Position numbers and translations under genes: made by a program. Below, piece after piece: positions 10,474 through 25,189 of a stretch of DNA of 64,000 nucleotides. The stretch comes from an uncultured Candidatus Peregrinibacteria bacterium (GTDB lineage: Bacteria > Patescibacteriota > Gracilibacteria > Peribacterales > Peribacteraceae): contig CAIKAD010000001.1 of assembly GCA_903825315.1 (NCBI GenBank), positions 62,001-126,000 on the forward strand, read 5' to 3'. Within the stretch, counting starts at the first letter, position 1, and every line of letters starts with the position of its first letter. The notes below the pieces were generated by a model. That model was not told where the DNA came from and searched no databases. It saw only the letters and a program-made list of their open reading frames with translations.

Positions 10474-10560
10474 GCCGTGGTGGCGGAATTGGTAGACGCA
10501 CTAGCTTGAGGGGCTAGCACTCGCAAGAGTGTGGAGGTTCGAGTCCTCTCCACGGCACCA
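10474..10560 (+). tRNA. tRNA-Leu (GAG), CCA encoded
   Basis: GCCGTGG/CCACGGC acceptor stem, CTAGC-TTGAGGG-GCTAG anticodon arm, long variable arm ACTCGCAAGAGT, GGTTCGAGTCC T-arm, ACCA end. Confidence 0.97.
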
Positions 10561-10968: not shown

Positions 10969-11823
10969 TTACATTATTTGAGGGTTTGAATTTCGAAGTG
11001 GGACAATCCTGTTTACAGCTTGTGTAGTTGAATTATGAATCTTGCTTATGTAGTGAATTACTTTTTGATGGGGAAAATGAAAGTACCATGAGTAGCTACA
11101 AAGCTCAGATACTTCATTCAAATAATCCCATACAGTTGCCTTCTGTTCATCGGTTAATTTGATGTTTCCTGTTTGTAAAGCAAGGAGATAGATCGCATCA
11201 ATTGTTGCGTGTATTTCTGGATCACTTTCAAAAAATTGCCAGAGCTTTTTCCCAGGAGTGAAATGCATGAATGCATTCCGTACATTCGCATTCAAACTCT
11301 TGATTGCATTAATGTCTGATTTTGGAAGGGTTAGTAATCTTTGCTTTTTACATCTCTTTATTGCTTCAGGGAAACTGATTAGCTGCTTTACTTCAATCCT
11401 TTCTCTCTTGAGCTCATATTCGTTATGCCATCTAAAGACATGATATGCGTACGACCTCATAAATCTTGGTAGGGGTCGCCATCTGTTGCCCTGAAAGCTT
11501 TTTCTTACCATTGCATCCAATTTGGATCGAACAAAGTGGCTAACTTGCATAAACAAAATTTTCCGACTGCTCATTTTTTTCCGATTCCACCACAATACAT
11601 TTTCATCATTTCCCTGGTGAAGTGCACAGATTGCAAAACCATACAGTGAACAATGCAAAGCTATCATTGCCCATTTCATCTTATGTCTAAGTCTGGGGCG
11701 CTGTTGGTAGCAACCCATTTCAAATACTGTGTGATTTGGTGAATTGAGAAATTCCCGAGCTGCTGATAATGACTCGACTGCATTCTCAATCTCGTTCAAT
11801 TCAATGTTTGACAGCAGATTCAT
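10969..11823 (-). CDS. HEPN-like hypothetical protein
   Basis: 284 aa alpha-rich; VRNAFMHFTPG contains an RN-x3-H (Rx4-6H) motif; AT-rich. Confidence 0.55.
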   Translation of the reverse strand: MNLLSNIELNEIENAVESLSAAREFLNSPNHTVFEMGCYQQRPRLRHKMKWAMIALHCSLYGFAICALHQGNDENVLWWNRKKMSSRKILFMQVSHFVRSKLDAMVRKSFQGNRWRPLPRFMRSYAYHVFRWHNEYELKRERIEVKQLISFPEAIKRCKKQRLLTLPKSDINAIKSLNANVRNAFMHFTPGKKLWQFFESDPEIHATIDAIYLLALQTGNIKLTDEQKATVWDYLNEVSELCSYSWYFHFPHQKVIHYISKIHNSTTQAVNRIVPLRNSNPQIM

Positions 11824-12006: not shown

Positions 12007-12234
12007 TCAGCCCAAAATTTCGGGAGGGTCGTTGCCGTACGAATCCTTCTGCCGGATTTGGCCGTGCAGACCTTGGATGACGAGTTCTTCCTTGTTTCTA
12101 CGTGCAATGCCGCGTGCTATCTTGATTGCCTCGGCCTGAGTTTCGGTAACCGCAGCCGCACGATGAGCTTTGGCGAGTTTGACGATCCATTTGTGATCCA
12201 GTTTACGGGGGGAGACGAAGCGTAGAGGAGTCAT
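12007..12234 (-). CDS. DUF2188-like small protein (75 aa from internal ATG)
   Basis: AIKIARGIARRNKEELVIQGLHGQIRQKDSYGNDP resembles the DUF2188 C-terminal pattern. Confidence 0.65.
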   Translation of the reverse strand: MTPLRFVSPRKLDHKWIVKLAKAHRAAAVTETQAEAIKIARGIARRNKEELVIQGLHGQIRQKDSYGNDPPEILG

Positions 12235-12307
12235 ATGCGAGTGGGGGTGCCTTCCCGGTACCTCTTCCACGTAGAAAAACGAGCAAAACCTCATTGTGTT
12301 ACAAAAA

Positions 12308-13153
12308 TCATCGGGGAAACTGGATTCCAATGACGGAGATTCTCCCATTTCCTACCAAATAAGGTTTCGAAAATGTTTCAGGGACGCTGTCGTTGCTAAA
12401 CAAAATTATGACCCCCCTATCCAATCTAGTCCCCTCCATCATGCGTAATGTTTGCTGTATGGCATGACGCATGGCCTCTTCGAAAATTTGATCAACTACA
12501 AACTTTGTCTCAACCAGAATTGAATAGTTTTCAAAGAACAGCACTAGATCGGCACGCATGTTCTCACGAATCGGAACTTCAACCTTGGCAACAGATGAAC
12601 GGGAAGATTCGAAGTATTGCTTAACCAATTTAATTACATCCGTTTCCCGTAATGTTGTATTCGTGGGTACTCGCATTTTACTGCTTTCAATGAACTTTTT
12701 GAGAGCCAGTAATGACAATTCAACCTCTATGGTACTACCCATAAATGCCAACCAAGCAAATACAGTCCGCAACACGAACATGGCTTCATCTCTCGTAACA
12801 CGACGACCGGAATGCGTTACTCTATTGCGGATAGCTTTCGCATCTTTGTAGTCAGACCAAAGATGATTGCGCTTATCGATCTGACGCCCGATAGCAACTG
12901 GCACAAAAGTATCTAAACGTGAATCAAAGTCAGTTCTCGTTCTTTCTTCCAACCATTTGACCAACAATGGATCGAGTTTTGATTCCAATGTCGGGAATAC
13001 TCTATTTGAGACATATGCCTCGAGCGCCGTAATAGCTTCGAGGATCACTGCACGTAAAACCTTCTCATCACCAGAATTAAATAACTCCTCCGCAATCGCT
13101 AGAAGCTCTTTCGGCGTGTGCAGCTCGGCACGAGGGATCGAGGAATCAGGCAT
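12308..13153 (-). CDS. HEPN-like protein with PD-(D/E)XK-like C-terminal region
   Basis: AIRNRVTHSG (RN-x3-H) and ADLVLFFENYSILVETK (D...ExK). Confidence 0.6.
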   Translation of the reverse strand: MPDSSIPRAELHTPKELLAIAEELFNSGDEKVLRAVILEAITALEAYVSNRVFPTLESKLDPLLVKWLEERTRTDFDSRLDTFVPVAIGRQIDKRNHLWSDYKDAKAIRNRVTHSGRRVTRDEAMFVLRTVFAWLAFMGSTIEVELSLLALKKFIESSKMRVPTNTTLRETDVIKLVKQYFESSRSSVAKVEVPIRENMRADLVLFFENYSILVETKFVVDQIFEEAMRHAIQQTLRMMEGTRLDRGVIILFSNDSVPETFSKPYLVGNGRISVIGIQFPR

Positions 13154-13157
13154 AGAA

Positions 13158-14492
13158 TTAGTGAACTTTTTCCTTGGAGAATTTTTCCAAAATAACGCTA
13201 CTCGGATGATTTGCTAATGAAACCAGCTTGTTCGCTAGGGACACAGGCAATAGCGACGAATCATACATATCGCACTTCAATAAGCTGATGTTTTGCAGAA
13301 TGACATGAAGATTACGGATATCCCTTTCTGTCGGAGCCTCAAGGACTTCCTTGCCCGCAAGAGTCACTACATACGTGCGATCATCTCCGGATTTGAATAT
13401 GACTTTATTGCCAAAATAAGTACTCCGTCCGTAGGTTTTAGTGGGGTCTGCTTTACCAGGAACGATGTATTTATGAATGTAAGTGTTATCTAATAGAAGG
13501 ACTGAATTAGGCTTTAGTCTTCTCATAATCTCATCTGCGTGCTCTACGAAGGCACCGCTTTTTTCTAGGCCAGCAAGATGCAACTCGTGGTTATCGAATA
13601 AATATTCGATCAACCGCTGCATTGGTCGGTGCATGTTGGCCGTTTGGCCAAAGAATGCCAAAGGTCCGTCAATGATGAATAGCACTTGTTTCAAACTCGA
13701 AGGATTGTCTCTCACCAAAGATCGCAAAATGTAGATCAAGATAAATTGTTCAAGGAGTTTTGTTACGTATCCCAGAATCCCACTAGCTCCTAGCTCATTA
13801 TCTACAGCCTCATGCAGTCGGAATACATCTGTTAAGTAGAGTTTCTCCGAGCAATGGCTACATGCCAATGTAAAATCGGCTTTAATATGAGTGCTGCCAA
13901 TTTTTACCCGCTCTCCACAGCTAGGACAGCTTGAAAGCTCCCATAGTGCTATTGGGGAACGCGAGTATTCTTCAAACAAGAACCATTTGAGGGTCTCTAT
14001 AAGCTTACGTGACTCTGTTCGGGGCTCGGCTGTAAAGAACTCATAGACAGATCTTCTCACCGTATTGGTCAATGTAAGCTCATCTCCAAGGGCAATGTTC
14101 TTCGTGGGGAGAATGAACTTGAAGCGCTCAATATCTTTTAGACGAGCCATATCACTGGGATCGATAAATGGTTTTTGCCCCAGTTCTTCGAGATCATTCA
14201 GCTTGAAAGCGAGAGCGCCGAATTGAAAGAAAGCTAAAGTCGAGGAGGGAAAGGACTTTTTTACAGAGATATCCGTATAACCTCCGTCTATTGCAATAAC
14301 ATGCTTTATTGGACTCTCAATTGAGGTATCTAGCTCCACGATTAATTGTTCAGGTAGCTCAACTTCCTCTGCGCTTTTTGGTAAGTGACAACGCTCCAAA
14401 TACTTCACCACTTCTTCATCTTGGATAACTTTGCTATGTGCGGATTTACTCGCATATTCACTCGGCCGTTTACCTTTACTTGAATAGCCCAT
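13158..14492 (-). CDS. NurA-domain nuclease
   Basis: AIDGGYTDISV (N-terminal catalytic Asp), LFIIDGPLAFFGQTA, LEKSGAFVEHAD; adjacent to HerA; internal CPSCGE..CSHC zinc ribbon-like insert. Confidence 0.75.
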   Translation of the reverse strand: MGYSSKGKRPSEYASKSAHSKVIQDEEVVKYLERCHLPKSAEEVELPEQLIVELDTSIESPIKHVIAIDGGYTDISVKKSFPSSTLAFFQFGALAFKLNDLEELGQKPFIDPSDMARLKDIERFKFILPTKNIALGDELTLTNTVRRSVYEFFTAEPRTESRKLIETLKWFLFEEYSRSPIALWELSSCPSCGERVKIGSTHIKADFTLACSHCSEKLYLTDVFRLHEAVDNELGASGILGYVTKLLEQFILIYILRSLVRDNPSSLKQVLFIIDGPLAFFGQTANMHRPMQRLIEYLFDNHELHLAGLEKSGAFVEHADEIMRRLKPNSVLLLDNTYIHKYIVPGKADPTKTYGRSTYFGNKVIFKSGDDRTYVVTLAGKEVLEAPTERDIRNLHVILQNISLLKCDMYDSSLLPVSLANKLVSLANHPSSVILEKFSKEKVH

Positions 14493-14497
14493 ATCTC

Positions 14498-16492
14498 TTA
14501 TTTCTTGGCAGTAAAACGGTCAATCTGAACTGGAACTACGAAAGGATTTGAATATGTTTTCATCCTCACAAAGCCCTTATCTTTGTCAGCGCTAAAGCGG
14601 ATGAGTCCGTCTGTGAAATCAGAGAAGTCATAGTATTTCCTAAGCTCTCTAATTTCGTCTTCATTGTTCAGATGGGCGATGAACCAGTTTTGAGTATTCT
14701 TCAGGATATTCGCACTGATTGAGCTAACTTCTTGGGTGGCATAGATAAGTGCGAGGTTCAATTTGGCACCTTCTTTCGCAATCTTGTTGTAGATTTGGCT
14801 TAGATCCCGATCTTCCCTGTGAGGGAACAGGTTATGCGCTTCTTCAAAGTAAAACTGGATGAAGTTATTAGGCTTATTGCTGATGAAAGTGGCCAATGAT
14901 TCGTTAAAAATCTTCTTGCAGATTCTTTCGGAGTACAGGCTCTGCACGTTTGCCTCTCCTTGCGATAGATCGACGATAACGATTTCACCGTTCCGCAGTG
15001 CCTGGATGATGTCTTCCTCGAAAGAGCTATCAAGAGAGGCTGTATGCATCTGCTGAATCGAACGGAGCATCGTATACCCACTGACGCTTGGGGAACCTCC
15101 TGGCGATTTCTTTCTTGTGAGGAAGGTTAGAAGTGCCTTTAGATCTTCATCAGCCCATTCTCTGCCCTTTTCATTCTTGTACTTCTTAAAGTAATCCATA
15201 TCCTCATAGTGGTCCCAAATGTACTCAAACCACTCAGTAGCTTCTTCTACAGAAATGCCTGACTTAGGGTCAAGTTTCTTGAGAGCATCGAGCTCAATTT
15301 GTTCCTGGATTTCTGCGCAGGTCTCGAAGTATACCTTGAAACTGCTAGGCTGATCGAAACCTGCTTTGTAAAGACAGCATTGGTATACAGCCTTCTTTCT
15401 TCTATACCTCGTTGCAGCCGACCCTTTTTGTTCCTCAGGTTCGATAAGCTCTATTGAACGGAAGCTCTGAACATAATGTCCCGACTCATCAACGAGACCC
15501 GCTTTAACAATCTCAAAACCAGATTCGATCTGAGTATAAAAGTTGATTTTCATGATCTTAAATCCATCTTTAGGAATTGTGCTGTAGCGACTGACCTTGT
15601 CTTGGTAGAGCTCAAAAATAGCCGTTCCTTCATCTTGAAGGTTGGCGTTTGCGTACTCACCATTGATGTCGAAAATAATCTGCCCCACAGGGAATTTAGG
15701 CGCTTCATCACTATCAAAGGGGGTGAGGTTAGCTTCGGGCTTGCTGGTCGGCTTGCGCGCATCGGTGAGCTTCGACTTAGCTTCTCCACTAATCTTCTCT
15801 GTCGCTTCGATAATCTTTTTCACTGTGTTCGATTTGCCTGTTCTGGTCATACCAAACAGCGCCGTTCTCTTTCCAAGAAAGTCTTGAGGGTTTATGCACA
15901 CGGCTACCTCCTTTCCTTGATCTTGGAAGCGTCGGCTGGAGCTATAACGAACAGAGCCGATTTTCACATCATGGGCAGAGATAGAACCCGCATTCACGAT
16001 ATAGCCAAGTACGTTCTCCCGAGGCTTATAAACCTTGTAATGATGGGCGCTGTAAAAATTCTCCACATCAGCTCCGAAGACTGTTTTTCCATTCTCTTGA
16101 TAGAAGGTACCGAGTACTTTGCACTCCAATCCTGAGAAACTGAATTCATAACGAGTGAACTGATCCAGCTCACTTTCGGATCCAGTGGTCTTTAGGTTGT
16201 CTTTGTAATATTCAATCATTGAACTGGTCACATCGTTTTCTGTAGGTAGATCTGTTGGCTCAAGTACGCGCAAGAGAATCGCTTCAGCGCCTTTGTCATT
16301 CTCGTTCTCGTAGAACGCCAACAAGAAAGACCCTTGTGGAATACCACCCACCTTGTATTTCCATGAGTCAGCCACGAGAAGATATGCTTTCTGATAATCG
16401 AGATAAAACGGTCGACCCACGAACGCATCCTCTTTACACCCTTCTTTGAGGATATCCACGTTAACGATGTCTTTGAGAATGGCTAAGCTCAT
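14498..16492 (-). CDS. herA: HerA-like hexameric ATPase/translocase
   Basis: Walker A GMTRTGKSNT, FDINGEYAN, EEAHNLFPHRED Walker B region, IYATQEVSSIS. Confidence 0.88.
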   Translation of the reverse strand: MSLAILKDIVNVDILKEGCKEDAFVGRPFYLDYQKAYLLVADSWKYKVGGIPQGSFLLAFYENENDKGAEAILLRVLEPTDLPTENDVTSSMIEYYKDNLKTTGSESELDQFTRYEFSFSGLECKVLGTFYQENGKTVFGADVENFYSAHHYKVYKPRENVLGYIVNAGSISAHDVKIGSVRYSSSRRFQDQGKEVAVCINPQDFLGKRTALFGMTRTGKSNTVKKIIEATEKISGEAKSKLTDARKPTSKPEANLTPFDSDEAPKFPVGQIIFDINGEYANANLQDEGTAIFELYQDKVSRYSTIPKDGFKIMKINFYTQIESGFEIVKAGLVDESGHYVQSFRSIELIEPEEQKGSAATRYRRKKAVYQCCLYKAGFDQPSSFKVYFETCAEIQEQIELDALKKLDPKSGISVEEATEWFEYIWDHYEDMDYFKKYKNEKGREWADEDLKALLTFLTRKKSPGGSPSVSGYTMLRSIQQMHTASLDSSFEEDIIQALRNGEIVIVDLSQGEANVQSLYSERICKKIFNESLATFISNKPNNFIQFYFEEAHNLFPHREDRDLSQIYNKIAKEGAKLNLALIYATQEVSSISANILKNTQNWFIAHLNNEDEIRELRKYYDFSDFTDGLIRFSADKDKGFVRMKTYSNPFVVPVQIDRFTAKK

Positions 16493-17460
16493 AACTTGTT
16501 GTGAGTAAGAAGCGGGTTCTGGAACCTAATGACAGATTGCTGCGCGTAATCACTGTTCGTATCAATTGATATCCATTTACGCTGTGATTTCTCGGCGCAG
16601 AATCCAGTAGTATTAGACCCCCCAAATGGGTCTAATACAATATCCCCAGGTTCAGTGAGCATTTCTATAAAGAACGATGCAAGCTCAATGGGCATCCTTG
16701 CTGGATGTGGCGCGATGCTTTTCTTGCGGCATCTAGCCAAAAAGAAATCATTAGACTGTGTATGCGAAATACTGAACACGTTTTTGGGAAGCCTTAGCTC
16801 TCGCTGCTCATCAATCTGCTCCAATTCAATCAAATTGTGCATGATGCTTCCCTTGTGCTTCTTCAAAAAGCTTTTTTCTCCAATAGCATGTTCCGAAGGT
16901 CTCTTGCCGGCATTATAACTCTGTCGCTTTAGTAGCATCTTCATGCTTGAGCTGTAAGGCCGAAGAACACGACTATTATCCGCCTTGGGATAATCATTCT
17001 TCGACATCCACCAAACATGCGTGAAGCTATCCGTAACTCGAATTCGCTTGATATTCACCCATTCTACAGGAGAGGGTAGGCGCGAGGGGTTGTAGCACAC
17101 GAATTCTTGGCATAGATGTAAGCCCGCACGCCTGTTTTGGACGAAACCTAGTAGTGATTCGAGCGGAAGCAAAGACTGGATTGGTCTTTTTGGTTCCCAT
17201 GCATTCCCAAGCTCAATAACAATTGATCCATTCGGAGTAAGCAGCTCTGAAAAAACTTCAGACAATCCGATAAACCATTCCTTGTATTCCTTCCCCTGGA
17301 GATTGCCGTAACTTTTCTTATTGTTGAGAGGGAAGGGTGGCGATGTAAGAATTAACTGAACCTTTTTCCTCAGCTTCTTCCCAAGCTCTCCATCCAACAA
17401 TTTATTGGTGTCTCCGAGATAATATTTGCCTAATTTGGTTCTGTGAAAAACTTGCGCCAT
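16489..17460 (-). CDS. DNA methyltransferase (N4-C/N6-A, beta-class-like)
   Basis: LTSPPFPLN motif IV, LDPFGGSNTTGFCAEK motif I, start-stop ATGA overlap with herA. Confidence 0.88.
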   Translation of the reverse strand: MAQVFHRTKLGKYYLGDTNKLLDGELGKKLRKKVQLILTSPPFPLNNKKSYGNLQGKEYKEWFIGLSEVFSELLTPNGSIVIELGNAWEPKRPIQSLLPLESLLGFVQNRRAGLHLCQEFVCYNPSRLPSPVEWVNIKRIRVTDSFTHVWWMSKNDYPKADNSRVLRPYSSSMKMLLKRQSYNAGKRPSEHAIGEKSFLKKHKGSIMHNLIELEQIDEQRELRLPKNVFSISHTQSNDFFLARCRKKSIAPHPARMPIELASFFIEMLTEPGDIVLDPFGGSNTTGFCAEKSQRKWISIDTNSDYAQQSVIRFQNPLLTHNKL

Positions 17461-17543
17461 GCAGATAGAAGGTATGTGTATAGTAATCTGGATTTCGTAT
17501 AATCTAAAGTTTCCTTATTCTTTAAACGCTGCGTGCATTTACT

Positions 17544-17753
17544 TCAGAACAGTTGCGAAAGGGTAATGCCGAATCCTTTTGCAAGTTTCTCCATCGTGCT
17601 CAGCCGCATATCACGGGGGTTGCTGCTCTCGTGCTCTTGATAGTACTTGTACTTGATCTGGCACTTCTTTGCAGCCTCTTCCTGCGTCCAATTCCTCTCC
17701 TTCCGAAGTTCCTTTATCCTCTTTGCCAATAGCTTTGCAGCCTCGGACGCCAT
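17544..17753 (-). CDS. XRE-family HTH regulator
   Basis: RIKELRKERNWTQEEAAKKCQIKYKYYQEHE, 69 aa. Confidence 0.85.
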   Translation of the reverse strand: MASEAAKLLAKRIKELRKERNWTQEEAAKKCQIKYKYYQEHESSNPRDMRLSTMEKLAKGFGITLSQLF

Positions 17754-18266: not shown

Positions 18267-18788
18267 CTACTGCCCCTCACCCCATAGCATTTCCCACCTG
18301 TCGCAGTAGGGGGTGATCATCGCGGCATGTTTCTCCTGATGAAGGTGCCGCTTGTTGTTGTCGGCGCTGTGCATCCTGCCGTTCCTTCCTGGGGTACGAA
18401 GATACGCGGCATGGTCTTCTCTCAGCCAGACGTCGAGGGTGGCCGTAGGGACGATGTAGTATCGGAGGTTCCTGAAGTCCTCGGCCAAGTCCACGAGAAC
18501 GGTGAAGTCCCGTCCCTGATCGAGATGAAGGAAGATTGTGCCGTCCTTCTTCGCGCTCCATTGCCAGATCGGCCATTCTTCGGACTTCGTCTTTACCCTT
18601 ATCCGTACATCCTTCCCGCCTTTGGTCGCGAGGATGTCGAAACCGGGAGCGTTGCGGGGCGCGAGCGCTGCGATGATCCCCCGCTTGAGGAGTTCCGCCA
18701 TGACGTAGCACTCCCCGGCATTGCCGATGAGGGTACTTTCCCCCGCGCGAATTCTTCCGCGCCGCCGTTGTTGCGACACCTCGTTCAC
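18267..18788 (-). CDS. PD-(D/E)XK-like nuclease-fold protein
   Basis: GNAGECYVMAELLKRGI...GFDILATKGGKDVRIRVKTK; GTG start with -10 GATACT 9 nt upstream. Confidence 0.55.
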   Translation of the reverse strand: MNEVSQQRRRGRIRAGESTLIGNAGECYVMAELLKRGIIAALAPRNAPGFDILATKGGKDVRIRVKTKSEEWPIWQWSAKKDGTIFLHLDQGRDFTVLVDLAEDFRNLRYYIVPTATLDVWLREDHAAYLRTPGRNGRMHSADNNKRHLHQEKHAAMITPYCDRWEMLWGEGQ

Positions 18789-18802
18789 AAGGTAAAGAGT
18801 AT

Positions 18803-18820
18803 CACCTTGCTTACAAGGTG
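18803..18820. promoter_or_regulatory. Operator-like inverted repeat between divergent nuclease-like and XRE genes
   Basis: CACCTTG-CTTA-CAAGGTG plus half-site CACAAGGT at 18786. Confidence 0.55.
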
Positions 18821-18855
18821 GTCTAGACGAGGTGTGGATCCGATGATGGCGTACT

Positions 18856-19077
18856 GTGAAAGACGACGTCACCCTACAATTGGGACACCGCATCAAGGCT
18901 CTCCGCAAGCAGCACAGCCTCACGCAAGAGGAACTGGCACGACGTTCCAAGGTGAGCATCAAGTACCTTCAGGCGCTGGAGGGGAAGACGCCCTACAACG
19001 CTACCATCGTGACGCTGAAGAAGCTGGCGGTCGGGTTCGAGATGCCCCTGTGGAAGCTCCTGAAGTTCGACGAGTGA
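18856..19077 (+). CDS. XRE-family HTH regulator
   Basis: LGHRIKALRKQHSLTQEELARRSKVSIKYLQALEGK; GTG start. Confidence 0.85.
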   Translation: MKDDVTLQLGHRIKALRKQHSLTQEELARRSKVSIKYLQALEGKTPYNATIVTLKKLAVGFEMPLWKLLKFDE

Positions 19078-20618: not shown

Positions 20619-20897
20619 ATGAAAGACGTAGCAACCACTTTGCGGCAACTTCCCATCCTCGACGTAGCCCGTTCATTGGGACTCAACGTCGTGCGTACCG
20701 GTGCCCGTACCTACAACATGCGAGAGGAGCGGGAAATCACCTCGCTCGTTATCTTCGAGAAGTCCAATACATGGCACCGGTTCTCCGGGAAGGAGCGCGG
20801 GGGTGTTTCGCGCGGCTCCACCATCGACCTCGTCATGCACATCCGCCAGTGCTCATTTCGGATGGCAATTGATTTCCTTACCTCCCGCTTCCTATGA
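20619..20897 (+). CDS. CHC2-like primase N-terminal domain lacking zinc ligands
   Basis: LPILDVARSLGLNVVRTGARTYNM...SLVIFEKSNTWHRFSGKERGGVSRGSTIDLVMHIRQCSFRMAIDFLT. Confidence 0.6.
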   Translation: MKDVATTLRQLPILDVARSLGLNVVRTGARTYNMREEREITSLVIFEKSNTWHRFSGKERGGVSRGSTIDLVMHIRQCSFRMAIDFLTSRFL

Positions 20898-22843
20898 AAC
20901 CCGCGAAGCTCAGTTTTCGAGTGCAATCCCTTCCCCGATCCTTCCGCCGTTATCTCAACCAGCGGGGCATCAGCGATGACGTTATCAAGAAGCGGAACAT
21001 TGGACTAACGACGATAAAGGAAAGACGGTGGATCGCGATCCCGGTGCATGACAAGCGAGATAAGTTGGCCGCTGTCATCCTCCGTAGCCCACCGAGGGCA
21101 CCCAAATCCCAGCAACGCTACACGATGCTGAAAGGAAGCAAGGCAATGCTCTATCCCCTCGATGCAGCGCGAGAAAGGGGCGACCTTCTGCTCTGCGAAG
21201 GAGTGCTCGACGCTCTCGCCGCCGAATCCACAGGCATCCGCGCGATAAGTGGCACGGCGGGCGCGGGGACGTTTAAGGAGGAGTGGCTGGAGCAAATCCC
21301 CAAAGGGGGGAAGGTCATCGTCTGCTACGACGCGGACGAAGCCGGACACAAAGGAAGAGACAAGGTTCTGCGTCTCCTCACCGCGAAGAGGCCGGATCTT
21401 CGGCTTGCCGTCATTGATCTCCCCGACATGGGTGCGAGCAAGAAGGACGTGACGGATTTCCTTACGCAATGCGGCGATGAAGACAAGGCAGCAGCGTTGT
21501 TGGGCCTCGCCCGACCATATTCGACTGCTGCGGTACAGAAACATACGCCAGTAGCACTCTCTGAGTTCAAGCCGCTAACAAGTGGAGACCTTGCCTCCAT
21601 CCTCGACCTGACGATCAAGAAGGACAACGCGAACAAAATCATCGTTTTCCTGTGCGCCCTCTCCTCCTACACGCGGGATTCACAGTTCAACATCAGCTTC
21701 AACGCTCCTTCCTCGGCGGGGAAGAGCTACATCCCTCTCGAAATCGCGCAGCTTTTCCCGGAAGAGGATGTTGTTGAATTGGGGTATTGCAGTCCTCAAG
21801 CATTCTTCCATGACCACGGTGAGTTCGACGAGAGAAAGGGGCGTTCCGAAATCAACCTTGCGCGGAAGCTCATTATTTTCGTCGATCAGCCGCATGACCA
21901 GCTGCTTCAGCGTCTCCGTCCTCTCCTCTCGCACGACAAGCCGGAGATCACGTCGAAGATCACCGACAAGACCCAGAAATGGGGGAACCGCACGAAGACC
22001 GTCTGCATCATAGGGTATCCGGCAGTCATCTTCTGCACGACCGGCCTGCGCGTCGACGAGCAGGAGAGTACCCGATTTCTTGTCCTCTCGCCCGAAATCA
22101 CCCAAGAGAAGTTGCGTGAGTCCGTTGTTGGGCGTATCCGTCGTGATTGCGACCGTGTGGCGTTTGACGCGTGGCTTGGAGAGCGTCCCGAGAGGCTTCT
22201 CCTGCGCGAACGGATCAAGGCGGTGAAGGCCGCAGGGATTGACGATGTGCTCATCGGTAATCCAGAAACCGTCGAAGAAATATTTCTCGGTTCACGTACC
22301 ATCCTGCGTCCTCGTCACCAGCGGGACGCGGGTCGTTTCATCAGCCTCACCAAAGCATTCGCGCTCCTGAACTTTATGTTCCGGGAACGCAAGGGCAACG
22401 TGATCGTGGCGGCAAGGGAGGACATTGAGGAGGCCGTTCGGCTTTGGGAGAGTATTGGGGAGAGCCAAGAACTGAACCTCCCGCCGTATGTCCTTGAACT
22501 GCACCGGCGCGTGATCGTGCCTGCGTATGAAGCAAAACGTAAGAATACATTGGCGGACGAGGGAACGGGCATCACAATGGCTGATATTCAGCGGCGACAC
22601 TACAAGGTGTACGGCGGTTCGATCTCGTACCCAAAACTGCGTCAGGAAATCCTTCCAATGTTGGAATCGGCCGGATTAATTGAGCAAGCGAAGGATTACA
22701 ACGGTGACGGGCGGAGGACGATTGTGACGCCCATCGATACTGCCGAACCTCAGCCAGAAAGAAATATGCCGGCGCGGGCGGGGGTCAGCGGTGAAGAGCC
22801 TCAGCAACTCCCATTCAATTCCCCCGAAGACGATGCCGAGTGA
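20894..22843 (+). CDS. Toprim primase fused to P-loop ATPase/helicase-like region
   Basis: LLLCEGVLDALAAES and CYDADEAG (Toprim), FNAPSSAGKS (Walker A-like); ATGA overlap with upstream gene. Confidence 0.75.
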   Translation: MKPAKLSFRVQSLPRSFRRYLNQRGISDDVIKKRNIGLTTIKERRWIAIPVHDKRDKLAAVILRSPPRAPKSQQRYTMLKGSKAMLYPLDAARERGDLLLCEGVLDALAAESTGIRAISGTAGAGTFKEEWLEQIPKGGKVIVCYDADEAGHKGRDKVLRLLTAKRPDLRLAVIDLPDMGASKKDVTDFLTQCGDEDKAAALLGLARPYSTAAVQKHTPVALSEFKPLTSGDLASILDLTIKKDNANKIIVFLCALSSYTRDSQFNISFNAPSSAGKSYIPLEIAQLFPEEDVVELGYCSPQAFFHDHGEFDERKGRSEINLARKLIIFVDQPHDQLLQRLRPLLSHDKPEITSKITDKTQKWGNRTKTVCIIGYPAVIFCTTGLRVDEQESTRFLVLSPEITQEKLRESVVGRIRRDCDRVAFDAWLGERPERLLLRERIKAVKAAGIDDVLIGNPETVEEIFLGSRTILRPRHQRDAGRFISLTKAFALLNFMFRERKGNVIVAAREDIEEAVRLWESIGESQELNLPPYVLELHRRVIVPAYEAKRKNTLADEGTGITMADIQRRHYKVYGGSISYPKLRQEILPMLESAGLIEQAKDYNGDGRRTIVTPIDTAEPQPERNMPARAGVSGEEPQQLPFNSPEDDAE

Positions 22844-23033
22844 GCGCAGTCGCCATTTCGGGCGTCGCGGACAGCTCCCTATTGAGGAAGACGAGTGGGA
22901 GTTCTCGTTCGATGATTCCTCTTCCCCGGAGGCTGACGAGGCGCTCGACCGTGCTCTGGACACCATCATGAGGCACGCGGAAGAACAATCACAGTCCCCC
23001 GATTCTTTCCCCGATGTCTATGAATGTCACTGA
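22791..23033 (+). CDS. Small acidic hypothetical protein
   Basis: 80 aa, overlaps the end of the primase gene; part of a colinear cluster. Confidence 0.4.
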   Translation: MKSLSNSHSIPPKTMPSERSRHFGRRGQLPIEEDEWEFSFDDSSSPEADEALDRALDTIMRHAEEQSQSPDSFPDVYECH

Positions 23034-23280
23034 TGTTCAGATCATGCCCGTCGCTCCTCGTGACGGCCTCATCGCCTTCGCCTCCTGCGTATTGAACGGC
23101 GAGTACCGCGTGGACTCCATCGCCGTGTTCACGAAGCTGAGCGGCGGTTACCGGCTTGTGTACCCCACGAAGAAGGTTGGTGACCGTCAGTTCTGCTACC
23201 ACCACCCGCTCACGCCGGAGGCGAGCAGGGCGGTGGAGGAGGCCGTGTTCCACAAGGTGGAAGCGCTGTTCGATCATTAA
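23014..23280 (+). CDS. SpoVG-like protein
   Basis: LIAFASCVLNGEYRVDSIAVFTKLSGGYRLVYPTKKVGD...HPLTPEASRAVEEAV. Confidence 0.7.
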   Translation: MSMNVTDVQIMPVAPRDGLIAFASCVLNGEYRVDSIAVFTKLSGGYRLVYPTKKVGDRQFCYHHPLTPEASRAVEEAVFHKVEALFDH

Positions 23281-23341
23281 CAACATCGGAAAAAGGAAGT
23301 AGCAAAAGAGGTCAAACACCTATTCCTTTCTCAATCCTTCT

Positions 23342-25189
23342 ATGTCGAGCAAAATTCACATGATGAAGGACGTAGCAAAGGATGTAGCAACAGACGTTGT
23401 GCCCGCCCCACTTATAGAAGCAGCAGCGTATGTGAGGGTGAGTACCGAAGAACAAGGGGACAAGTACGGACCCGACTTTCAGAGGCATGAGATCATACGG
23501 TACGCCGAGTACCACGGATACAGGGTTCTGCCGGAACACGTGTACATGGACATCGGGTATTCCGGAGCGACGAGCATTGAAGAACGCGAGGGACTCAAGA
23601 GCTTATGGGAAGCGGCGGAGCGCAAGGAGTTCTCCACCGTCCTTGTGTGGAAGGTTGACCGCTTGTTCCGGCGGCTTCTCTACCTTCTGGACGCCCTCGA
23701 CCGTCTCTCGAAGCTGGGTATCGGCTTTGTCGCAACGACGCAGCCCGAGATGAATACCACGAGCAGTATCGGAAAGGTCATCATGGCTGTTATCGGCATT
23801 CTCTCCGAGGTGGAGCGCGACAACATCCTGGAACGAACGGCGGCGGGAAGACAGGCGGCAGCACGGGCGGGCAAGTGGGCGGGCGGCAGATATCCCCCGT
23901 ACGGGTATGACATTGATCCCGCGACGCGCATCATGAGCGTGAACGATGAAGAGGCAAACATCGTCCGCAAGATCTTTGATTGGCTCGTGCGGGACAGGCT
24001 CACGACGTACGCCATCCAGAAGAGAATCAATGCGATGAAGGTCAGAACGAAAGCGGACTCTGCGGTGAAATCGCTTCGTGATCAGGGTAAGGAGCCTGGG
24101 TATTGCAGAACGAGGAACGCGGAGAATTTCTGGGGGCACAGCACGATCATCAAAGTGCTCCGGCAGGACGCCTACAAGGGGGAGTACTACTACAACAAGC
24201 GCAAGCGCGGGAAGGATCCCGCGACGCGCAAGATGCGTGAGGTCATCAATCCCCGCGAGAAGTGGATTCCCATTCAGTGCATTCCTATCGTAGAAAAAGA
24301 AGTATGGGAAAAGGCTCAGCAGATCCTTGCGGATAACCAGAAACACGCTCGAAGAAACCGACAGCATGACTACTTGTTCGCGGGAGGGATAGTCGTGTGC
24401 GGCGTCTGCGGCTCCAACTACGAGTGCTACATGAAGAAGAAATATAAACGGTCGGGCGGGGGGCGGGTGTGCGTGGACCAGTTTCCGCAATGCCGTTGCC
24501 GCAAGATCAGCCTGACGAAGGCGAGCACGCGGTGCACGAACCGTCATATCTCCGAGCGGATTCTGGAAGACCGCGTGTGGAAGCAGATCCATTCCCTCCT
24601 TGCCGATCCCCGTCATTTCCTCGACCGCTTACAACAACGCGAGGAGAGAAAAGGAAATGCGCAGGAGTTGCGCGTGAAATTGAGGGAAATCGACGCCGAA
24701 CTTGCGGAAGCGCAGAAAGAGTGGGATCGCGTGCTTGACCTCTACGAGCGCGGTATCCGCTACCAGAACCCCGGTGAGCTGCCCGAACGGCAGCGGCAGA
24801 TACAAGCCCAGAAACAAGTGATCACCGTCGAGCGGAACGCCATTGCCGGGAAGCTTCTGTCGCAGGAGGAGAAACGCGACCGCGCGAAGCTGGCCTCCCT
24901 CCTCGCAAAACGCTACCGCTCATCGCTGGAAGACCTCTCTCCTAAAGAACGGGCGCGTCTGATACGGGACGTCGTTCGCAGGATTGTCGTGTACCCCCGC
25001 AAGATCCACATTGAATACCGTCTGAGTAGAAGCCTCTTCGAGAAGACCCAAAACGGGGAAGACGGGGGTGGCGGTGATCAGTTGCCACCCCCTCGTCACC
25101 ATTATTATCAAACACTCACCACACCCCCGGTACCAGCCGATACGTCACTTTCTTCCTGTAGGCCGCATAACCGGGCAATCCTTTGGTGA
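23342..25189 (+). CDS. Large serine recombinase
   Basis: AAYVRVSTEEQ catalytic Ser, GYSGATSIEEREGL, zinc ribbon CGVCGSNYEC, coiled-coil C-terminus. Confidence 0.93.
   Translation: MSSKIHMMKDVAKDVATDVVPAPLIEAAAYVRVSTEEQGDKYGPDFQRHEIIRYAEYHGYRVLPEHVYMDIGYSGATSIEEREGLKSLWEAAERKEFSTVLVWKVDRLFRRLLYLLDALDRLSKLGIGFVATTQPEMNTTSSIGKVIMAVIGILSEVERDNILERTAAGRQAAARAGKWAGGRYPPYGYDIDPATRIMSVNDEEANIVRKIFDWLVRDRLTTYAIQKRINAMKVRTKADSAVKSLRDQGKEPGYCRTRNAENFWGHSTIIKVLRQDAYKGEYYYNKRKRGKDPATRKMREVINPREKWIPIQCIPIVEKEVWEKAQQILADNQKHARRNRQHDYLFAGGIVVCGVCGSNYECYMKKKYKRSGGGRVCVDQFPQCRCRKISLTKASTRCTNRHISERILEDRVWKQIHSLLADPRHFLDRLQQREERKGNAQELRVKLREIDAELAEAQKEWDRVLDLYERGIRYQNPGELPERQRQIQAQKQVITVERNAIAGKLLSQEEKRDRAKLASLLAKRYRSSLEDLSPKERARLIRDVVRRIVVYPRKIHIEYRLSRSLFEKTQNGEDGGGGDQLPPPRHHYYQTLTTPPVPADTSLSSCRPHNRAILW

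Follow-up and report, generated by a model that had tools for sequence, protein, structure and literature searches.

A conserved and mobile MTase–HerA–NurA gene trio as a candidate restriction-modification-like defence system

An operon of an uncultured Candidatus Peregrinibacteria bacterium was found to contain three adjacent genes, encoding a DNA methyltransferase (MTase), a HerA-type ATPase and a predicted nuclease of the NurA fold, that constitute a conserved and mobile three-gene core. As this trio turns up in bacteria and archaea that are only very remotely related, often next to anti-virus genes, it is probably a little-known type of restriction-modification (R-M) system that destroys unmarked incoming DNA. 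The reading that we favour, with some reserve, is that of an R-M-like defence in which methylation would mark the self DNA and a HerA-NurA translocase-nuclease would replace the site-specific endonuclease.

Organization of the operon and its surroundings

The window, i.e., the whole stretch of 64,000 nucleotides that was analysed, belongs to a genome of 1.29 Mb assembled in five contigs, the relatives of which have around 1 Mb each. It contains six consecutive ORFs on the minus strand, in the order XRE, MTase, HerA, NurA-like, HEPN/nuclease-like, and DUF2188 (Table 1). The MTase and HerA genes overlap by 4 nt (ATGA), the spacing is of 5 nt between HerA and NurA-like and of 4 nt between NurA-like and HEPN-like, and 83 nt separate the XRE gene from that of the MTase. 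Coordinates and spacings are thus those claimed in the original prediction, and so is the lower GC content of the operon (43–47% vs. 55–60% in the flanks). The HEPN-like and DUF2188 genes overlap by 41 nt, but the DUF2188 domain begins at residue 44 of its protein, so the overlap may be an artefact of the start codon assigned; a start at Met residue 39 would abolish it.

The operon had also been placed within a recombinase-bearing island. A large serine recombinase gene and a tRNA-Leu gene support this setting, but the search for an att repeat at the tRNA-Leu gave no result, and an empty-site test showed that the flanks of the operon lack conservation within the genus, so the borders of the island are not fixed. 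The serine recombinase gene is accompanied by a primase/helicase-like gene, and both are probably the mobile element's own. A further minus-strand gene of the window encodes a protein with a weak match to PD-(D/E)XK nucleases.

Table 1. Features of the window, with positions counted from its first nucleotide.
Feature	Position	Strand	Remarks
XRE	17544–17753	-	69 aa
MTase	16489–17460	-	323 aa
HerA	14498–16492	-	664 aa
NurA-like	13158–14492	-	444 aa
HEPN/nuclease-like	12308–13153	-	281 aa
DUF2188	12007–12348	-	113 aa
Possible second HEPN protein	10969–11823	-	284 aa; RNAFMH; weak Cas13d HEPN match, 9e-5
tRNA-Leu	10474–10560		
Weak PD-(D/E)XK match	18267–18962	-	231 aa; PDDEXK_5, 0.013
Relative of the XRE protein (coding stretch)	18880–19062	+	41% identity
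Primase/helicase-like gene plus large serine recombinase	20894–25189	+	
Large serine recombinase	23342–25189	+	phrog_95, 1e-104

Families and folds of the three core proteins

The MTase showed an N6_N4_Mtase domain (Pfam, 4.5e-31) and, as its best relative of solved structure, M.PvuII (1boo, 8e-73), with an alignment along the full length. The M.PvuII encoded by pPvu1 (NC_002632) was 41% identical to it over 320 aa, an alignment that spans the central region, which we regard as responsible for target recognition. Among the relatives, this central region is conserved to the same degree as the catalytic motifs, so a shared target is likely, probably CAGCTG. The enzyme is thus a beta-class MTase of the M.PvuII family, with N4-cytosine as the predicted modification and CAGCTG as the probable site. 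The observed/expected ratio of CAGCTG was 0.98 in the window, i.e., the site is not depleted, and its 340 copies in the genome reveal no obvious shortage; consequently, the signature of restriction avoidance is absent.

The HerA protein matched DUF87 (Pfam, 8e-13) and keeps intact Walker A (GMTRTGKS, residues 214–221) and Walker B (FYFEEAH, residues 547–553) motifs. Its profile recovered TdpA (8wet, 2.8e-25) as the top match in the PDB, the runner-up being at 2.6e-14, and the protein is therefore predicted to be a hexameric DNA translocase ATPase of the HerA type.

The third protein was harder to place by sequence. Its E value against the Pfam NurA family was 0.14, and 14 of 40 relatives scored below 0.01 (best, 2.9e-5). 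No convincing full-length match to canonical NurA was obtained with our own NurA profiles or with hhalign against 24 to 51 canonical NurAs, and no match appeared when the PDB sequences were searched with the profile of the NurA-like protein. The assignment consequently rests on the fold and on the Pfam matches of the relatives. An AlphaFold (AF2) model built from 40 relatives reached a pLDDT of 85, and Foldseek returned as its top match the TdpB chain of the TdpAB-DNA complex (8wfd; 7.9e-8, probability 1.00, TM 0.48–0.58), followed by the NurA proteins of Deinococcus, Thermococcus, Pyrococcus, and Sulfolobus. All seven matches with E < 0.001 were NurA-family proteins or TdpB. Identity to TdpB in the structural alignment was 13%, with sequence similarity below detection.

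Residues D222, E248, D275, K311, and H318 of the NurA-like protein are invariant in the 83 relatives compared, and D69 is kept in 82 of them; D69, E248, and D275 appear to lie within motifs that resemble those of canonical NurA (IDGG, E, DGPL). An inserted zinc ribbon (C189, C192, C211, C214) is retained in around 67 of these 83 proteins. Position 421 is Asn in the main clade vs. His in divergent members from Vibrio and Halorarius, and the active site may thus depart in some details from the canonical NurA one. Altogether, the protein is a predicted nuclease of NurA fold (RNase H-like) with a zinc-ribbon insert.

The families that the original prediction had given to the MTase, HerA, and NurA-like proteins were therefore upheld, the latter through the structural comparison of the AlphaFold model; the M.PvuII type of the methylase had gone unnoticed in it.

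Conservation of the trio and exchange of its partners

A genome scan with the alignment of the NurA-like protein yielded 140 confirmed relatives, the best 80 of which were kept for examination. Among these best 80, contiguous MTase-HerA-NurA genes were found in 50 other loci, in 42 of which the MTase was at least 55% identical to that of the window. The genes of the trio mostly overlap by 4 nt or lie a few nt apart, and some of the loci examined end early at contig ends. This gene order is well beyond chance. Pairwise distances among the MTase, HerA, and NurA-like proteins were correlated (r = 0.70 to 0.87, vs. a maximum of 0.22 over 999 permutations), a co-divergence that is expected for genes travelling together and that joint transfer of adjacent genes would also produce.

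The hosts of the trio include Methanosarcina, Chloroflexota, Bacteroidota, Bacillota, Cyanobacteria, Pseudomonadota, Planctomycetota, and Patescibacteria. These phyla are intermingled on the NurA-like tree, where the nearest relatives of the window protein are from Patescibacteria. The distribution is patchy, as one of 385 related genomes, not counting the source genome itself, has the system. Divergent forms were located on plasmids and in two temperate Vibrio phages, and a scan of viral contigs with the NurA-like protein, as a single sequence and as an alignment, gave no relative. The MTase, HerA, and NurA genes thus form a conserved three-gene core, and a mobile one.

In contrast to this core, the HEPN-like and DUF2188 genes were absent from all the homologous loci checked, and the slot downstream of the trio is filled by different genes in different loci. 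The six genes originally seen as a unit are therefore rejected as a conserved one, and of the MTase-HerA-NurA-HEPN neighbourhood whose conservation had been raised, the first three members stood and the HEPN gene did not. That all six genes would work as a single dedicated system whose main effector is the HEPN/PD-(D/E)XK protein is consistent with the 4-nt spacing after the NurA-like gene and with the block of low GC, but these absences and the variable slot leave it very improbable. The XRE gene also counts as accessory, together with the HEPN-like and DUF2188 genes, as only some homologous loci have an XRE/C-like gene and most relatives lack it.

Regarding these accessory genes, the XRE protein matched HTH_3 (Pfam, 9e-11) and the PADLOC Control_protein model (9e-10), with 28% identity to C.PvuII, so this HTH protein of the XRE/Cro-C1 type is possibly a C-protein-like controller. 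A regex search revealed no XRE gene upstream of the relatives' MTases. With tblastn, relatives of the XRE protein were located next to HerA-NurA in Nostocales, and an upstream one in a single locus (L019). A relative of the XRE protein is also encoded by a stretch of the window on the opposite strand (Table 1).

The 281-aa protein carries the motifs RNRVTH (RNxxxH) in its N-terminal half and D-x(n)-ETK in its C-terminal half, by which it is a putative HEPN + PD-(D/E)XK fusion. Its HEPN_Apea score (0.039) is below the Pfam cut-off, and its single-sequence model (helical N-half, beta-rich C-half) had a pLDDT of 49, too poor for a fold search. One relative, marginal and partial, was found in 289 genomes, and no match in plasmids or viral contigs. 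The HEPN/PD-(D/E)XK-like effector proposed originally thus kept its two motifs, on which the claim rests, but gained nothing from the domain score, the model, or the single relative. The DUF2188 protein was assigned to its family with 8.7e-17 (Pfam) and to the PADLOC candidate PDC-S16 with 9e-23. Located 183 nt downstream of its gene, and maybe on the same transcript, is the gene of the 284-aa protein, a possible second HEPN protein for which no Pfam family passes.

The partners of HerA-NurA are exchanged among loci. Where the PvuII-type MTase is missing, there is often another in its place or beside the pair: a permuted SPPY-type enzyme in 13 loci, a D12 adenine MTase in Salirhabdus and in the Vibrio phages, and type III Mod-Res in three loci from Nostocales. 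The order integrase, HerA, NurA, and antisense D12 adenine MTase is common to Salirhabdus and one temperate phage of Vibrio (L008, L018), with nucleases that are far diverged despite this common order. In a supported Nostocales clade (L002, L003, L004, L014, L015), a gene for an 82-aa XRE protein is followed by HerA-NurA with no MTase alongside. Three plasmids of this clade were not among the best 40 matches when plasmids were searched with the MTase, and an MTase may still be encoded elsewhere. Along the NurA tree, the MTase type showed 17 label changes vs. a minimum of 5, partly corresponding to loci without an identified MTase.

These exchanges bear on an alternative in which HerA-NurA would be triggered by another phage signal, such as free ends or replication/packaging intermediates, and the MTase would be an antitoxin-like brake or would provide a mark for another enzyme. 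The Nostocales clade, the switches of MTase type, and the lack of an evident recognition domain in HerA and NurA speak in its favour, as do the HerA-Sir2 and HerA-DUF4297 systems, which defend without an MTase (cited in PMC12977600). However, most complete loci do have an MTase gene, usually translationally coupled, and one MTase is swapped for another rather than lost, which suggests that methylation is needed; we therefore regard this alternative as unlikely.

In many loci, genes of defence systems directly adjoin the trio, an enrichment that was judged by eye. In eight Bacteroidota loci (L029, L035, L044, L047, L050, L051, L052, L085), the trio runs directly into Septu PtuA, usually with a 4-nt overlap, and then mostly into a PtuB-like gene. 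Two loci, one of them from Patescibacteria, have type III Res before the trio and a Cas4-like nuclease after it, and others adjoin GmrSD or AbiEii genes.

Relation to known systems and proposed mechanism

TdpA and TdpB are the nearest relatives of solved structure for the HerA and NurA-like proteins of the window. The Tdp system (TdpABCDE) was reportedly described by An et al. in 2025 (Nat Chem Biol), and its TdpCDE proteins are said to mark DNA by phosphorothioation. In common with it, the window system has a HerA-type hexamer and a NurA-fold nuclease as the predicted DNA-destroying pair, and presumably also tells self DNA by a mark on it, but the mark would come from a DNA methyltransferase, and no TdpC, TdpD, or TdpE was found in the window operon (Pfam). 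The kinship with HerA-NurA pairs had been recognized in the original prediction, whereas the closeness to TdpAB had been missed. The PvuII R-M system shares with the window an MTase of the same family and a small adjacent HTH gene, but HerA and NurA occupy the place of R.PvuII, and no cognate site-specific endonuclease was detected in the operon (Pfam, PADLOC, NCBIfam). Likewise, Sir2-HerA and HerA-DUF4297 combine a HerA translocase with an effector, which in the window is the NurA-fold nuclease plus an MTase; searches with the same three resources revealed no Sir2 or DUF4297 effector next to the window HerA.

The HerA-NurA pairs of Sulfolobus, Pyrococcus, Thermococcus, and Deinococcus resemble that of the window in fold and domain partnership, and such a NurA fold with a HerA ATPase would also suit a role in repair through DNA end resection, which has been proposed for the archaeal pair. 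The window pair is distinguished from the end-resection pair by its coupling to an MTase, its zinc-ribbon insert, its mobility, and a sequence very far from canonical NurA. In addition, neither mre11 nor rad50 was found in the window operon, no canonical NurA was found in the source genome, and the system is patchy and linked to defence, so that a repair role is hardly to be expected. The repair role of HerA-NurA is itself disputed, and an antiviral one has been suggested instead (PMC12977600).

Another parallel in gene content is ICETh1 of Thermus, a tRNA-inserted mobile element with an operon for a type IIG enzyme, a NurA-like protein, TdtA (FtsK-HerA family), and an N4/N6 methylase, in which nurA and tdtA are required for DNA donation (PMC5365140). 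By its published content, this operon is like that of the window in joining a HerA-family ATPase, a NurA-like nuclease, and an N4/N6 methylase, and genes for a tRNA and a serine recombinase are found not far from the window locus as well. A role as DNA-transfer machinery is nevertheless improbable, as the window operon lacks a type IIG enzyme, the neighbours of its relatives are defence and not transfer genes, and the plasmids and temperate phages that host them have their own means of transfer.

MADS was rejected as well, since of its mad1-mad8 gene set two models gave matches, mad8 with HerA (6e-13, outscored by several other HerA models) and, marginally, mad1 with the HTH protein. No PADLOC model fits the NurA-like nuclease, and in the libraries searched the exact gene set corresponds to no named system, in agreement with the original prediction. 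A full-text search of the openly licensed literature did not find the trio as a described system, though an earlier mention is possible, and NurA is unmentioned in comparative papers of 2024 and 2026 on HerA capture systems (PMC10853773, PMC12839542).

In the R-M-like mechanism that we favour, the M.PvuII-type MTase would set N4-methylcytosine on the cell's own CAGCTG-like sites. The hexameric ring of HerA, as expected from its family, would thread double-stranded DNA and, as in the TdpAB and HerA-NurA structures, would dock on the NurA-fold nuclease in dimeric form. By analogy with TdpAB, the complex would translocate along unmethylated incoming DNA and degrade the duplex, and methylated self sites would block its loading, translocation, or cutting. 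The HTH gene would probably delay or balance expression. The slots beside the core could hold swappable back-up effectors, such as HEPN/PD-(D/E)XK and DUF2188 in the window, Septu in Bacteroidota, or the Cas4-like nuclease and type III Res in some Patescibacteria.

This R-M-like reading is supported by the conserved trio, the correlated distances of its three proteins, the M.PvuII family of its methylase, the TdpAB-like pair, the near-invariant active site, the substitution of one MTase by another, the defence neighbours, and the patchy and mobile spread. Against it are the lack of CAGCTG depletion, the clade without an adjacent MTase, the Asn at position 421 of the main clade, and the donation role reported for ICETh1 (PMC5365140). 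Moreover, HerA-NurA has no evident sequence-recognition domain, so that its reading of a site-specific mark is hard to explain. Judging from families, fold, operon, and spread, the original idea of an MTase-licensed HerA-NurA translocase/nuclease appears right, its function being what we infer. More tentatively, and with somewhat more doubt than confidence, the trio could represent a widespread R-M class in which a processive, TdpAB-like HerA-NurA ring reads a protective mark on the passing DNA, the mark being interchangeable (m4C, that of other methylases, or phosphorothioate in Tdp). Were this true, one DNA-shredding engine would have been repeatedly paired with different self-marks.

If the trio restricts DNA, it would depart from the rule that type II methylases are paired with site-specific endonucleases, as an M.PvuII-family enzyme would guard against a processive motor-nuclease, and HerA-NurA would be tied to defence across bacteria and archaea. 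It also raises the question of whether base methylation is sensed by the HerA ring in the DNA threaded through it. Finally, many bacterial proteins annotated as the repair nuclease NurA may be defence enzymes.
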